Shown in pieces: positions 51,977 through 58,467 of a stretch of 64,000 bases of DNA (the stretch's first letter is position 1; each line of letters starts with the position of its first letter). Origin of the DNA: Streptomyces sp. NBC_01353 (GTDB lineage Bacteria > Actinomycetota > Actinomycetes > Streptomycetales > Streptomycetaceae); contig NZ_CP108352.1 in the NCBI RefSeq assembly GCF_036237275.1, positions 6,262,001-6,326,000 of the forward strand, given 5' to 3'. Made by a program: the position numbers and the translations under genes. The notes below the pieces were generated by a model, which saw nothing but the letters and a program-made list of their open reading frames with translations, did no database searches and had not been told where the DNA came from.

Positions 51977-53845
51977 CTAGACCAGCACCCCGGCGAGCAG
52001 TGACGCGGTCAGCGCCGCCCCCTCCATCGTCAGCACCGACTCCGGGTGGAACTGGACGCCTGCGAAGCCCGGCCCGCGCAGGGCGTGGACCTCGTCCGTC
52101 GCCGCGTCCCGGCTCACCTCGATCCGGTGCAGGGCCAGTTCGGTGGCGGTCCGGTCGTCGCAGTGGGCCGTGAAGCTGTTGTAGAAGCCGACCGTCTGCT
52201 CCTGCCCGAAGAGGTCGATCCGCATCTGCGCCCCCTGGAAGGGGGTGCGCTTGCGGACGATCTCCAGGCCCAGTTCGGCCGCGATCAGCTCATGGCCGAG
52301 GCAGACACCGAGAAGGCCGGCCCGGTGGTCTCGTACGAGATCGGCCGTGAGGCCCCTGAGGAAGCGCATCTTGGGGTCGGCCGCGTCACCGGGGTCGCCG
52401 GGCCCCGGGCCGAGCACCACCGGGCCGTCGTGGGAGAGCGCGAGCTCCCGCAGTCCCGGCTCGTCGTAGCGGACGACCGAGACCTCCAGGCCGGAGGAGC
52501 GCAGCAGATGCGCGAGCATGGCGGTGAAGGTGTCCTCGGCGTCGATCACCAGCGCGTGGCCGCTCAGCTCGGCCGACCGGACCTGCATCCGCAGCCAGAA
52601 CGGCGCCAGGTCGGCCCGCCGGGCGTCCAGCGCCGCCCGCACCCGGGGATCGTCCGCGAGCCGGGCCGCCCGCGGGGACTCCTCGCGCGGCCGCCCTTCC
52701 CGTACCCCCAGGGCGGCGAGCACGCCCGCCGCCTTGGCATGGGTCTCGGCGACCTCGCCCGCCGGGTCGGAGTGGCGCACCAGAGTCGCGCCGACCGGCA
52801 CCCGCAGCCGCCCGTCCCCGGAGATGTCGGCGGTCCGGATGAGGATCGGGGAGTCCAGCGTCTGCACCCCGTTCTCGTCCGTGCCGAGCAGGGCCAGGGC
52901 GCCCGCGTAGTAGCCCCGCCCGCCGGCCTCGTGCCGCTCGATGACCCGGCAGGCGTTCTGTACGGGGGAGCCGGTGACCGTCGCTGCGAACATCGTCTCC
53001 CGCAGCACCTCCCGTACGTCGAGGGACGAACGGCCGCGCAGCTCGTACTCGGTGTGCGCGAGATGCGCCATCTCCTTGAGCCGGGGCCCGATCACCACTC
53101 CGCCCATGTCGCCGACCGTGCACATCATCTTCAGCTCCTCGTCGACCACCATGGAGAGCTCCTCGGTCTCCTTGCGGTCGGCGAGGAAGGTCAGCAGGTC
53201 CTCGGGGGTCGGCGCGGCGCCCGCCGGGTAGCGGTACGTGCCGCTGATCGGATTCATCACGACCGTGCCTCCGGACATCCGGACGTGCACCTCGGGGCTC
53301 GCACCGACCAGCGTGCGCTCCCCGGTGTGGACGACGAAGGTCCAGTACGCGCCCCGCTCGCCGGCGAGCAGCCGACGGAACAGCGCGAGGGCGTCGGCGC
53401 GTCCGAAGCCCGGGATCTCGCCGGTGTAGGTGCGGCGGATGACGAAGTTGGCGCCCTCGCCCGAGCCGATCTCCTCGTCGATGACCCGCCGCACGGTCTC
53501 GGCGTACGCCTCGTCCGACACGTCGAACCCGCCGCCCTCCACCCGTACGTCGTGGCGGGGCAGCTGATCCATCGCGGTGGCGAGCGGCAGCTCGTACGCC
53601 TCCTCGGCGACCAGGACGGAGAGCGGGGTGTCGTCGTCGCGGACGTCGAAGCCGCGCTCGCGGATCTGCCGGAACGGCACGAGTGCGAGCGTGGGCAGCG
53701 TGCCGACGGGCAGCTCGGCGAGCCGCTCGGCCTCGTGGACCGCGCCGATCAGCACCTCGACGGTGTCGTGGTCGCGGCCGGGTGTGCGCCTGCGGAGCAG
53801 GGCGAACGGCGGGCAGGAGTCGTCGAGGAGACGGGAGAGGTCCAT
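51977..53845 (-). CDS. Anthranilate synthase, TrpE-TrpG fusion
   Basis: This 622-residue protein converts chorismate and glutamine to anthranilate. The first ~410 residues are the chorismate-binding TrpE part (NPISGTYRYPAG, ELSMVVDEELKMMCTVGD, VTGSPVQNACRVIERHE, RTADISGDGRLRVPVGATLV, each in the usual order). The last ~190 are the glutamine amidotransferase with C515 in GVCLGHE and His/Glu in QFHPESV. Such fusions occur in primary Trp synthesis and in phenazine-type pathways; the Trp-codon leader upstream argues for the Trp role. An open frame extends upstream through the leader but ATG 53845, preceded by GGAAGGAACC, is the start. Confidence 0.93.
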   Translation of the reverse strand: MDLSRLLDDSCPPFALLRRRTPGRDHDTVEVLIGAVHEAERLAELPVGTLPTLALVPFRQIRERGFDVRDDDTPLSVLVAEEAYELPLATAMDQLPRHDVRVEGGGFDVSDEAYAETVRRVIDEEIGSGEGANFVIRRTYTGEIPGFGRADALALFRRLLAGERGAYWTFVVHTGERTLVGASPEVHVRMSGGTVVMNPISGTYRYPAGAAPTPEDLLTFLADRKETEELSMVVDEELKMMCTVGDMGGVVIGPRLKEMAHLAHTEYELRGRSSLDVREVLRETMFAATVTGSPVQNACRVIERHEAGGRGYYAGALALLGTDENGVQTLDSPILIRTADISGDGRLRVPVGATLVRHSDPAGEVAETHAKAAGVLAALGVREGRPREESPRAARLADDPRVRAALDARRADLAPFWLRMQVRSAELSGHALVIDAEDTFTAMLAHLLRSSGLEVSVVRYDEPGLRELALSHDGPVVLGPGPGDPGDAADPKMRFLRGLTADLVRDHRAGLLGVCLGHELIAAELGLEIVRKRTPFQGAQMRIDLFGQEQTVGFYNSFTAHCDDRTATELALHRIEVSRDAATDEVHALRGPGFAGVQFHPESVLTMEGAALTASLLAGVLV

Positions 53846-53894
53846 GGAGCGGGTTCCTTCCGGGATTCGGAGAGGAACGGCCTCGGGTACGAGA

Positions 53895-53918
53895 AAGGCC
53901 GCCCCTCGGGGCGGCCTT
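53895..53918 (-). terminator. Attenuator terminator of the trpEG fusion
   Basis: Read on the minus strand, AAGGCCGCCCC pairs with GGGGCGGCCTT across a 2-base gap (11 bp), then TTCTCG. It lies 50 bp before the trpEG start. Its 5' arm can instead pair with GGCGGCC of the leader (plus 53976-53982), just after the Trp codons, giving a classic antiterminator alternative. Confidence 0.82.
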
Positions 53919-53927
53919 CGCGTTCGA

Positions 53928-54026
53928 TCAATCGCGCGAACTGGGGTATCCCCCAGCTCGAAGAGCTTGGGGACGGGCCGCCGGATGAGCGGTCCACCAC
54001 CAGTTCTGGGTCGTCTGCGCGAACAT
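53928..54026 (-). CDS. trpL: trp leader peptide (three adjacent Trp codons)
   Basis: This 32-codon ORF ahead of the trpEG fusion begins MFAQTTQNWWWTAHPAA and then continues RPQALRAGG to a stop at 53928. Three consecutive TGG codons (9-11) sit about 10 nt before the segment able to pair with the terminator arm. That is the arrangement for ribosome-mediated attenuation, as reported, to my knowledge, for an anthranilate synthase gene of S. venezuelae. TACAGT lies 6 nt before the ATG, with no Shine-Dalgarno site, so the transcript probably starts at the ATG. The last 14 or so codons run through a small inserted-looking repeat. Confidence 0.85.
   Translation of the reverse strand: MFAQTTQNWWWTAHPAARPQALRAGGYPSSRD
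53941..53973. repeat. Small palindromic repeat inside the trp leader
   Basis: ctgggg/ccccag (53941-53946 with 53951-53956) and the overlapping ccccagctc/gagcttgggg (53951-53959 with 53963-53972, one bulge) form mutually exclusive hairpins. Similar ctggggtatcccccag elements are, in my memory, dispersed in Streptomyces genomes. It lies between the antiterminator segment and the terminator. Confidence 0.6.
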
Positions 54027-54125
54027 GCGAGCACTGTAGCCCAGCCGGACATGGAAACGGGGCCCGGTCCGCACCGTGGACGGTGCGAGCCGGGCCCCTT
54101 CATATGATCGATCCGACCCGATGGA

Positions 54126-56957
54126 TCAGAAGATCATGGTGTATATCTGCCAGCCCGGACCCATCTTGATGCGCCCGCCGATCGGGGACGTGGCGCTGCC
54201 CGTGCCCGGGTACAGCCACGCGACGCCGGTGGTGTCGCGAGCCATCAGGTCGACCTTGCCGTCACCGGTCAGGTCGCTCGGGCCGAGGATGACGTTGTGC
54301 ATGTTCCATCCGGTGCCGACCTGGACCCGGCTGGAGTACGGAGCGGTGGCGTTGCCGGTGCCCTTGTGCATCCACAGGACGCCGGTCTTGTCGCGGCCCA
54401 GGATGTCGGCCTTGCCATCACCGGTCAGGTCGCCGGCGCCGACGATGGTGCTGTAGACGTGCCATCCGGTGCCGAGCTGCGCACGGGCGGTGAACGGCAC
54501 GGCCGGGTCACCGGTGCCCTTGTAGAGGTAGATCGCGCCCGACTTCTCCCGCGCGAGAAGGTCGGCGTTGCCGTCACCGGTCAGGTCACGGACACCGACG
54601 ATCTGGTCGTAGCCTCCCCAGTTGGGACCGACCTTGATCCGCCCCTTGAACGGCGAGGACGGGTTGCCGCTGCCCTGGTGGTACCAGAGCACGCCGGAGG
54701 CGTCGCGGCCGACGACGTCGCCGATGCCGTCGGCACGCAGCGCGGTCATCGGGGTGACGAGGTTGTACACGTTCCAGCCGGTGCCGGCGCGGTAACGGCG
54801 CAGGAACTGGAAGTTGGCGTTGCCCGTGCCCTGGTACTGCCAGTAGGCGCCGGAGCTGTCACGGCCGATGACGTTGTAGCGGTTGGTGGCAGTGACCGGC
54901 GCGGCGCCGGAGACCACGTCCACCTCGGAGGCCTTGACCCAGGCGATGCGGTGGTTGAACCGGATCGGGATGAAGAGGTTCGTCGTGCCCTTGACCAGGG
55001 TGCGCGAGCCGGCGCCCGTTCCGTCGAAGGTGCCGCCGTAGTAGTAGTCACCGGCGACGGGGGCGCCGCCCTGGACGTACTTCTGCCCCGACAGCAGCAG
55101 CTTGCTGTACTGCGTCAGCGCCTCCTGGCCGCGGCTCTGAACCGAGACGTTCGTCCCCGTGTACGCCGCGTCCTCAGGGTAGGCACGGCCGAAGACCTTC
55201 ACGGAGGTCAGGCCGGCCTTCGGCGTCACCGCCGTCCTGGTGCCCGTGCCGACCGGGACGGTCCACTGGCCGCCGGGGTTGTAGAACCAGGCCTTCTTGC
55301 CGCCGTACCAGATCGCCGTCCAGTCGTACTGGCTCTCCGCGACCACGTACTCGCCGCCCGCGACGAGCTTGTTCGCCCAGTTGGAACCCTCCGACCAGGT
55401 CGACGAGAAGTACGGGTCGGTGAGGGTCGACGAGCTCGTCGACGGCGAGGAGTAGAGGTAGCCGAAGTTCGACGGCCGCGCGGCGACCGCGGCTCCGCCG
55501 TACGTCAGCTTCGGCTGGTTGGCCGTGGTGAACGGCGGGACGTAGCGAACGATCTGGCCCGCCTTGAGCAGCCCGCCCGCGCCGCCGACACCCGTCGGGG
55601 CGCCCAGCAGCGACATGTAGTGGTTCCAGTCCCAGTACGGGCCCGGGTCCCAGTGCTGGGCGCGGACCTTCTCGTCGAGCACGCCGGGGATCTCGTCGTG
55701 GCCGATGATGTGCTGGCGGTCCAGCGGAATGGAGTACTTCTTCGCCAGGTGCTTCACGAGCGCGGCGGAGGACTCGTACTGCGGCTCGGTGTACCAGGAG
55801 CCGCTCTTGATGGCGTAGCCCTCGTGCTCGATGCCGATCGAGTGCATGTTGAGGGTCTTGTTGCCCGCGTGCCAGGCCTCGTTCTTGTTCTCGACCATCT
55901 GGGTGACGAGACCGTCCGAGGCGCGGATCAGGTAGTGCGCGCTCGCGTACGACGCCGGGTTCTTGAAGACGGCGAGCGAGCCGTCGTAGCCGCCCTCGGT
56001 GTCGTGGATGGCGATGTAGCGGATGTCGTAGCCGCCCTCGGGGCGGTTGGCGACGTTGTAGTTGCCGTAGTCCGTCGGGTCGGTCGTGCTGTTCTGCCGG
56101 AAACCGGCAGGGATGAAGTTGCAGTTCAGGCCCAGGGGGCAGTCGGCCGTCGCCGTCGTCGCCGCGAAGGTCGCGGCGAGCGGGACGTTCGACGGCTTCA
56201 CGGGCTCGACCGAGGGATCGGCGGGCAGGACGACCTGCTCGCCGTCCGTGGTGAGCTCCCGCTCGCCCGTCTTGATCGACTCGAAGACCCGCTTCGCGAA
56301 GAGGTCGGCGCCCTTCTTGTCCGGAGCCTGGCTGTAGCGCGCCACGGCCGGGTACCAGGCACCCGCCTCGTCCGGCAGATCGCCGGTCGCCTGCTTCTGG
56401 TACTCGGCGAGCAGCGCCGCACCGGCGCGGATGCTCGCGGCGGTGTCGTTCTTCAGGGAGTCGGCGGAGCCGTCGACCAGTTCGGCGGCCTTGTCCAGGG
56501 TGTGCAGCCGCGGATCGTCGGTGTCGACGGTCTCCTTCGGCGTGCTGCGCAGCGCCTTCTGTGCGTCGAAGTGCTTCTCGACGTTGGGGTCGCCGCTCCG
56601 GTTCATGTGCTCGAGGCGTTCCTCGTCGGCCTCGGGCTCCATGTCCTCCGCGTCGACGTCAGTCAGCCCCATGACGTTGTACGCACCGGTCACGCTCGGC
56701 TCGCCGTCGTGGGACTCCCACCGCGTCTGCCGGTACGACACGGCCATCAGCACGCTCTGCGGCACGTCGAACTCGCGAGCCGCGTCCGCGAACTGCGACT
56801 GCAGCGAGGCGTTCGCACTGCCCTTGTCGTCCGAGGATCCGAGGATCCCCGGCGACGCCACGGCGATCGTGCCGATCGTCGCGGTGGCGACGACCGCCGC
56901 CGCCGCACCGTAAAGCAGTCGTCTCTTCTTGCGGTCCTTGCGGTGCCCTTGAGTCAC
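54126..56957 (-). CDS. Large secreted N-acetylmuramoyl-L-alanine amidase with VCBS/FG-GAP repeats
   Basis: This 943-residue exported protein has a basic start (TQGHRKDRKKRR), a hydrophobic export segment at 14-36, and a helical region with VSYRQTRWESHDGEPS (about 60-250, possibly lysozyme-like). A type-2 amidase domain then carries zinc-site H318 in IAIHDTEGG, YLIRASDGLVTQMV, HSIGIEHEG and HIIGHDEIPG. A beta-rich part follows. The last ~190 residues hold four propeller-type repeats with DLTGDGKADILGRD calcium-binding signatures. It cuts peptide stems from glycan chains of peptidoglycan. GTG 56957 (AGGGG upstream) is preferred. Confidence 0.9.
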   Translation of the reverse strand: MTQGHRKDRKKRRLLYGAAAAVVATATIGTIAVASPGILGSSDDKGSANASLQSQFADAAREFDVPQSVLMAVSYRQTRWESHDGEPSVTGAYNVMGLTDVDAEDMEPEADEERLEHMNRSGDPNVEKHFDAQKALRSTPKETVDTDDPRLHTLDKAAELVDGSADSLKNDTAASIRAGAALLAEYQKQATGDLPDEAGAWYPAVARYSQAPDKKGADLFAKRVFESIKTGERELTTDGEQVVLPADPSVEPVKPSNVPLAATFAATTATADCPLGLNCNFIPAGFRQNSTTDPTDYGNYNVANRPEGGYDIRYIAIHDTEGGYDGSLAVFKNPASYASAHYLIRASDGLVTQMVENKNEAWHAGNKTLNMHSIGIEHEGYAIKSGSWYTEPQYESSAALVKHLAKKYSIPLDRQHIIGHDEIPGVLDEKVRAQHWDPGPYWDWNHYMSLLGAPTGVGGAGGLLKAGQIVRYVPPFTTANQPKLTYGGAAVAARPSNFGYLYSSPSTSSSTLTDPYFSSTWSEGSNWANKLVAGGEYVVAESQYDWTAIWYGGKKAWFYNPGGQWTVPVGTGTRTAVTPKAGLTSVKVFGRAYPEDAAYTGTNVSVQSRGQEALTQYSKLLLSGQKYVQGGAPVAGDYYYGGTFDGTGAGSRTLVKGTTNLFIPIRFNHRIAWVKASEVDVVSGAAPVTATNRYNVIGRDSSGAYWQYQGTGNANFQFLRRYRAGTGWNVYNLVTPMTALRADGIGDVVGRDASGVLWYHQGSGNPSSPFKGRIKVGPNWGGYDQIVGVRDLTGDGNADLLAREKSGAIYLYKGTGDPAVPFTARAQLGTGWHVYSTIVGAGDLTGDGKADILGRDKTGVLWMHKGTGNATAPYSSRVQVGTGWNMHNVILGPSDLTGDGKVDLMARDTTGVAWLYPGTGSATSPIGGRIKMGPGWQIYTMIF

Positions 56958-57101
56958 ACCCACCCCTGTGATTAATTCAAGCCTCAGATGTTGAAACGCG
57001 CGTGAGGGTAACACCACTCGAAGGCGTGAACCTTGTTCACAGACATTTCGGACGCGCGTCTCAGCCACTGGTCGCGTCCCTGGACAGGTCGCCCGACCCC
57101 G

Positions 57102-57115
57102 TAATGTGGTGGTTG
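57102..57115 (+). promoter_or_regulatory. Leaderless promoter of the DAHP synthase gene
   Basis: CTGGAC (57080-57085) and TAATGT (57102-57107) are spaced 16 bp; the GTG start follows 7 nt later. Transcription should therefore begin at or next to the start codon. Confidence 0.6.
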
Positions 57116-58467
57116 TGACCGTGAACGCTAAGACCACCGCTACCGGTGGCAACACCTGGCGAGACCTTCCCGCGGCGCAGCAGCCTGAGTACCCCGATGC
57201 CGAGGCTCTGCGCGATGTGATCGCGGACCTCGAGTCGTATCCGCCGCTCGTCTTCGCGGGCGAGTGCGATCAGCTGCGCGCCCGTATGGGAGCCGTCGCC
57301 CGTGGCGAGGCGTTCCTGCTCCAGGGTGGCGACTGCGCCGAGGCCTTCGACGCCGTTTCCGCCGACCACATCCGTGCCAAGCTCAAGACCCTGCTCCAGA
57401 TGAGCGCCGTCCTGACGTACGCGGCCTCCGTGCCCGTCGTCAAGGTCGGCCGCATCGCCGGGCAGTACTCCAAGCCCCGTTCGAAGGGGACCGAGACCCG
57501 CGACGGCGTGACCCTGCCGACGTACCGCGGCGACTCGGTCAACGGCTTCGACTTCAACGAGAAGGCCCGCATCCCGGACCCCGAGCGTCTGAAGCGGATG
57601 TACAACGCCTCCGCCTCCACGCTCAACCTGGTGCGCGCCTTCACCACCGGCGGCTACGCCGACCTGCGCCAGGTGCACGCCTGGAACCAGGACTTCGTGA
57701 AGTCGTCCCCCTCGGGCCAGCGCTACGAGCAGCTGGCGCGCGAGATCGACAACGCGCTGAACTTCATGGAGGCCTGTGGCACCGACCCGGCCGAGTTCCG
57801 TGCCGTCGAGTTCTACGCCTCCCACGAGGCGCTGCTGCTCGACTACGAGGGTGCGCTGACCCGTACGGACTCGCGCACCGGCAAGCTGTACGACACCTCG
57901 GGCCACATGGTCTGGATCGGTGAGCGCACCCGCCAGCTCGACCACGCCCACATCGAGTTCGCCTCGCAGATCGCGAACCCGATCGGCATCAAGCTGGGCC
58001 CGACGACCTCGGTCGACGACGCGCTGACGTACATCGACCGCCTGGACCCGGACCGTGAGCCCGGCCGGCTGACCTTCATCGTCCGTATGGGCGCCGACAA
58101 GGTCCGGGACAAGCTCCCGGAGCTGGTCGAGAAGGTCACCGCCTCCGGCGCGACCGTCGCCTGGGTCACCGACCCGATGCACGGCAACACCTTCGAGGCG
58201 GCCTCCGGCCACAAGACCCGGCGCTTCGACGACGTGCTCGACGAGGTCAAGGGCTTCTTCGAGGTCCACAAGAGCCTCGGCACGCACCCGGGCGGCATCC
58301 ATGTCGAGCTCACCGGTGACGATGTCACCGAGTGCGTGGGCGGCGGCGACGAGATCTTCGTCGACGACCTGCACCAGCGCTACGAGACGGCCTGCGACCC
58401 GCGGCTGAACCGCAGCCAGTCGCTGGACCTGGCGTTCCTGGTCGCCGAGATGTACCGCGATCAGTAA
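57115..58467 (+). CDS. Class II DAHP synthase
   Basis: This enzyme condenses phosphoenolpyruvate with erythrose 4-phosphate, the entry step of aromatic amino acid synthesis. It is the plant/actinobacterial class II type with 450 residues. Seen: QGGDCAEAFDAVSADHIRAK without its end (metal-binding Cys), PVVKVGRIAGQYSKPRS, YASHEALLLDYE, WIGERTRQLDHAHIEF without ends, DPMHGNTFEA, and HPGGIHVELTGDDVTEC. I use GTG 57115, preceded by a -10-like box at leaderless distance. It lies near the trpEG fusion, both feeding the Trp pathway. The S. coelicolor-type enzyme is the only recognised DAHP synthase here. Confidence 0.96.
   Translation: MTVNAKTTATGGNTWRDLPAAQQPEYPDAEALRDVIADLESYPPLVFAGECDQLRARMGAVARGEAFLLQGGDCAEAFDAVSADHIRAKLKTLLQMSAVLTYAASVPVVKVGRIAGQYSKPRSKGTETRDGVTLPTYRGDSVNGFDFNEKARIPDPERLKRMYNASASTLNLVRAFTTGGYADLRQVHAWNQDFVKSSPSGQRYEQLAREIDNALNFMEACGTDPAEFRAVEFYASHEALLLDYEGALTRTDSRTGKLYDTSGHMVWIGERTRQLDHAHIEFASQIANPIGIKLGPTTSVDDALTYIDRLDPDREPGRLTFIVRMGADKVRDKLPELVEKVTASGATVAWVTDPMHGNTFEAASGHKTRRFDDVLDEVKGFFEVHKSLGTHPGGIHVELTGDDVTECVGGGDEIFVDDLHQRYETACDPRLNRSQSLDLAFLVAEMYRDQ

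Follow-up and report, generated by a model that had tools for sequence, protein, structure and literature searches.

The 64,000-nucleotide stretch of Streptomyces DNA analyzed here (the window) carries, ahead of the fused anthranilate synthase gene trpE(G), a short open reading frame with three adjacent Trp codons, and this raises two questions: what kind of switch the locus encodes, and why its small peptide is so long. Collectively, comparison with relatives and RNA folding indicate that the locus is very probably a ribosome-mediated trp attenuator of the known Streptomyces trpL–trpE(G) type, from which Trp-dependent readthrough is predicted. The attenuator itself is ordinary and already known; the unusual part is a palindromic insert that lengthens the sensor peptide.

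All features of the leader lie on the minus strand. Direct reading together with comparison places a predicted –10 hexamer, TACAGT (54033–54038), 6 nt before the leader ATG (54026–54024); no clear –35 element is discernible by eye in the trpL promoter. The leader peptide ORF, read directly, is MFAQTTQNWWWTAHPAARPQALRAGGYPSSRD (53928–54026), 32 codons followed by an in-frame TGA (53930–53928). Within it lie the sensor, three adjacent Trp codons TGGTGGTGG (53994–54002; from alignment and locus counts), and the antiterminator 5′ strand GGCGGCC (53976–53982; from folds and locus counts), followed by the palindromic insert GTCCCCAAGCTCTTCGAGCTGGGGGATACCCCA (53942–53974, core 53950–53972), which was delimited by alignment and genome pattern searches. 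The intrinsic terminator AAGGCCGCCCCGAGGGGCGGCCTTT (53894–53918), identified from folds and locus counts, is GC-rich; its 5′ arm GGCCGCC (53916–53910) doubles as the antiterminator 3′ strand, and its 3′ arm GGCGGCC ends at 53897 and runs into a short T tract, TTTCT. Thus, direct reading bears out the initial annotation on the 32-codon ORF with its Trp codons before the TrpE–TrpG fusion, on the complementarity of GGCGGCC to GGCCGCC in the terminator 5′ arm, and on the position of TACAGT. Downstream, a Shine–Dalgarno-like GGAAGG (53856–53861, direct reading) precedes the regulated gene, trpE(G) (51977–53845), found by locus scan and NCBIfam. Its ATG lies at 53845, and its 622-amino-acid product gives TrpE-like and TrpG-like NCBIfam matches; of the 43 families 25 were listed, and none of these reached its curated cut-off. 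The predicted fold of the leader RNA has an energy of –72.7 kcal/mol (z = –4.65), which none of 200 shuffles matched. Rfam returned eight matches between 53000 and 55000 at E values up to 5, every one under its gathering score; the best, mir-6790, RNAI, and mir-Ro6-3 (E 0.023 to 0.04), were taken as chance. Upstream, an amidase-like gene (54126–57155, minus strand) is followed, before the trpL –10 box, by a long hairpin at 54045–54112 (GGGGCCCGG...CCGGGCCCC, then GTTT), which is probably the terminator of that gene, abutting the trpL promoter.

Relatives of the locus were collected by scanning genome contigs with TrpE(G), and the best 80 of 556 confirmed loci were kept; the counts that follow refer to these 80 plus the window. 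The Trp codons, the loss of which in close relatives the initial annotation had held decisive, are retained in 81/81 loci. A TANNNT box lies 6–7 nt before the leader start in all 81 as well, a count that is not fully independent because starts were picked among in-frame ATG/GTG codons by a TANNNT 4–9 nt upstream. Across the 80 relatives, however, only 88 of 13,232 ATG/GTG sites have TANNNT at 6–7 nt, and 80 of those 88, we infer, are the leader starts themselves. With the motif list used, a Shine–Dalgarno word was found before the leader in 0 of 81 loci. The terminator hairpin is present in every locus, and 77 loci, the window among them, have a T tract behind it (four or more T within 9 nt); L020, L021, L043, and L079 are the four that lack it. 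GGCGG(C/T)C occurs in 80 of 81 loci, the exception being L036, where the change breaks one pair. The antiterminator strand stands in one common frame in 78 loci, and L072 and L079 hold it in a different frame, where it encodes other amino acids (in L079 as GGCGGTC); because of these two, selection seems, at the level of sequence comparison, to act on the antiterminator RNA rather than on the leader peptide. The covariation that the initial annotation had proposed to look for proved uninformative across the 81 loci because the paired segments hardly vary. More widely, a pattern of WWW, GGCGG, and GGCCGCC at normal spacing matched 355 of 392 genomes of the genus, its reversed control being nonzero in three rows by eye (G121, G296, and G311).

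The same arrangement is familiar from the literature. Table 4 of PMC8079986 gives an RNA-seq-mapped leader of Streptomyces lividans TK24, trpL1 (MFAHSTRNWWWTAHPAAH), which is leaderless, carries WWW, and lies upstream of trpE; the passages of that paper dealing with it describe its termination as apparently Rho-independent, and place the –10 motif TAnnnT 4–9 nt from the transcription start. With this spacing, TACAGT in the window would fit a start at the ATG. The leaderless mRNA that the initial annotation had deduced from TACAGT has comparative support, from the box at 6–7 nt, the lack of a Shine–Dalgarno word, and the match to S. lividans trpL1, and is the predicted arrangement here. To judge from those passages, trpL1 resembles the window in its WWW leader peptide, in leaderless initiation (predicted here), and in a terminator before trpE, but has 18 codons and no extension, in contrast to 32 in the window. 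Candidate classical trp attenuators were described by Seliverstov in 2005 (PMC1262725) in all Streptomyces and Corynebacterium genomes considered there, with a complementary triple gGCC–rGCy–GGCC; the sections concerned show the repeated UGG codons, GC-rich terminator, and complementary triple also seen in the window but, unlike it, describe no palindrome insert. Attenuation of Streptomyces venezuelae trpE(G), the same kind of gene and control, is cited in PMC1262725 as an experimental study by Lin, Paradkar, and Vining (1998), and PMC4833913 likewise cites that work. In the passages of PMC13236596 and PMC4681348 considered, this trp leader is not mentioned.

Folding is consistent with the two exclusive structures, terminator and antiterminator, that the initial annotation had put forward. 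When the ribosome is placed on the third Trp codon and the RNA extends no further than the 5′ arm of the terminator, the minimum-energy fold of the nascent transcript contains the antiterminator (at least 5 of 7 pairs) in 81/81 loci, with 7/7 pairs in the window and 6/7 in L036, where one base is missing. On full-length RNA, the window favors the terminator fold by 6.5 kcal/mol, and the 80 relatives do so by a mean of 5.1 kcal/mol (sd 1.5, range 1.5 to 7.9); since the terminator wins here, antitermination in these models would have to be kinetic. Classical attenuators switch kinetically, and in Escherichia coli trpL it is the stalled ribosome that selects antiterminator over terminator. Unlike E. 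coli trpL, the window has predicted leaderless initiation and three adjacent Trp codons. In the mechanism we propose, RNA polymerase would initiate at the leader ATG or immediately beside it, and a ribosome would load on the leaderless AUG and translate toward WWW. With charged tRNA-Trp scarce, it would stall at the TGG codons and leave GGCGGCC free to pair with nascent GGCCGCC, so that no terminator forms and trpE(G) would be transcribed. With ample Trp, the ribosome would pass, the GGCCGCC/GGCGGCC terminator would form, and transcription would end.

What sets the window apart is the end of its leader peptide. In 77 of 81 loci the leader ends directly after GGCGGCC, with its stop 30 nt past the first TGG; late stops occur at +72 in the window and in Streptomyces ficellus (L023), at +45 in L072, and at +42 in L079. 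The leaders of L072 and L079 read WWWPAPGGP, with a frame change after WWW, GGCGG(C/T)C kept, and the stop moved. At the position of the relatives' stop, the window and S. ficellus, the latter alone among the 80 relatives, carry a palindrome of ~33 nt. Because this palindrome replaces the usual stop, the window's stop falls 42 nt further downstream, at +72, and its peptide has 32 codons versus typically 18 in relatives. By alignment, then, the 32-codon length is not typical and goes with the insert.

Two consequences for the switch may be distinguished. In the stalled state, the insert between the antiterminator strands would fold as its own side hairpin; since it folds alone inside the antiterminator loop, stalling should still antiterminate, and we infer that the attenuator tolerates the insert. 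In the Trp-replete state, the terminating ribosome would be placed immediately ahead of the terminator rather than over the antiterminator strand. With an assumed leading edge of 12 nt, a ribosome at the TGA (53930) leaves the RNA free from the first base of the terminator (53918) onward, and on this footprint GGCGGCC is left uncovered; the shifted stop might thereby weaken or delay termination when Trp is ample. A rival reading, in which the leader is intact and the insert impairs the switch through over-termination, or through poor termination at ample Trp with the stop 42 nt downstream, is in our view unlikely. It would accord with the rarity of the +72 stop (2 of 81 loci), with the exposure of GGCGGCC at that stop under the assumed footprint, and with the far stronger folding of the nascent RNA (–39.5 kcal/mol versus a mean of –19.5 kcal/mol in the 80 relatives, S. 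ficellus included). However, the full-length fold gap of 6.5 kcal/mol stays within the relatives' range, and the leader common to S. ficellus, its ORF open and its terminator intact, does not look decayed.

Where the insert came from is suggested by similar palindromes elsewhere in the genome. A pattern, CCCCNNGCTCN{2,12}GAGCNNGGGG, occurs at nine places in this genome versus none for the reversed control, and eight of the nine, the window included, share one sequence type, L138 being least alike; L132 was dropped as a different sequence. A long form of the palindrome is counted 10 times in this genome and found in 45 of 101 genomes of the genus, with a control of zero (rows by eye). The dispersed palindrome in this genome (L131 and L133–L138) mostly reads CCCCAAGCTCTCG(A/G)CT(T/C)CGCTCGAGCAGGGGG with a (T/G)ACCCCCA tail, and it reaches 51 counts in another genome of the genus, G073. 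Around the other copies the ORFs are ambiguous, because several frames are open in this high-GC DNA. On these comparisons we take the insert to be a dispersed palindromic repeat. That it is instead a product of local slippage, or a chance palindrome, we consider quite improbable: the window's core shares 22 of 23 bases with the copy at G000:C1:1572434, and the long form recurs in the genus with no control matches by eye, even though the 9-nt loop present in five of the seven other copies is missing at trpL and patterns near the exact short form gave few places and did not clearly exceed their controls (5 versus 2 and 13 versus 22). Because the short-form patterns fail in this respect, the assignment to a repeat family rests on the nine-place pattern, the eight-copy comparison, and the long form. 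Like the REP-type dispersed palindromes treated in PMC3733652, the repeat is a palindrome of 20–40 bp in several copies; unlike REP, its eight copies share no GTAG or CGTC end by eye, and CGTC adjoins the window's copy only. The open-access literature listings contained no description of this palindrome and no such insert in an attenuator.

At trpL, the palindrome is rare. With the patterns used, it was found in only this genome among the 392 genomes of the genus, 35 of which fall outside both counts: 37 lack a normal-spacing match, and this genome and G073 are the two among them that match a longer-spacer leader pattern. The longer-spacer pattern hit 21 places in 20 of the 392 genomes, about nine of them trpL-like by eye (sequences shown to 80 letters), and among these the palindrome is present, by eye, in the window's match only. 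The G073 match (G073:C328:10040-10136) is a leader, trpL-like by eye, whose longer spacer holds another hairpin (GGAGCAAGCTAGCTCC) and whose stop comes later. A narrower leader pattern, matching 142 of 392 genomes, was superseded by the wider ones, and a loose genus pattern (274 of 392) was discarded, its control counts being of like size by eye. A pattern for the insert plus flank, applied to 296 genomes that partly overlap the 392, again gave this genome only, and a distant BLAST search of the 166-nt leader against plasmids gave no match. The second carrier, S. ficellus, came from another collection.

The two carriers have nearly the same leader, with three substitutions and one 1-nt gap over the 117 nt from the ATG to the terminator arm, yet do not group by their trpE(G) genes. 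In a tree of the window with L001 to L047 (47 of the best 80 of 556 loci), the window stands with L001 and L004 (support 100/100) and S. ficellus with L016 (100/97); the two carriers are not united, and all three partners lack the insert. Identity is also lower on either side of the leader: in the promoter stretch the window is 69.1% identical to S. ficellus versus 81 to 97% to 14 of L001–L015 (L014, 72.7%), and in the stretch from terminator to trpE it is 88.1% identical to S. ficellus versus 90 to 98.5% to L001–L015. By itself the coding part of the leader does not discriminate, since L019 is identical to the same degree. The two carriers would be most simply explained by short-tract transfer of the leader. 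Two separate insertions at trpL are possible, and an ancestral insertion followed by repeated loss is less likely than transfer, requiring about five losses on this tree. L009, a record named Microtetraspora glauca, lies inside Streptomyces in the same tree and is either mislabeled or a transfer. Taking transfer together with the moved stop, we tentatively put forward a composite model that is plausible but less likely than not: the palindrome would have inserted into a working attenuator core and become fused in frame to the sensor peptide, the resulting cassette of little more than 100 nt would have passed between distant Streptomyces lineages, and, with the stop moved, the ribosome in the Trp-replete step would stand at the terminator foot where it formerly masked the antiterminator.

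That the hairpin acts solely as a constitutive terminator, with an incidental short ORF, is extremely improbable, since, although the hairpin is locally stable (–21.4 kcal/mol) and conservation would be expected of a terminator alone as well, this would not explain the Trp codons and box at a fixed distance in all 81 loci, the retention of GGCGG(C/T)C in 80 of them and across reading frames, or the RNA-seq-based leader in S. lividans.

As an attenuator, the locus is a further instance of a control that is already known. Its insert makes it a natural experiment, with related leaders that do and do not contain a self-folding element of ~33 nt and a stop moved by 42 nt, through which one could gauge how much spacing and stop position matter to attenuation when Streptomyces mRNA is leaderless. 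The locus also shows a dispersed palindrome lying within a small coding sequence. Variation at the other end of the leader was seen in L041, L045, L048, L067, and L076, in whose 22-codon leader the same WWWTAHPAA follows a different start (MSTQQIQISIQN-like).
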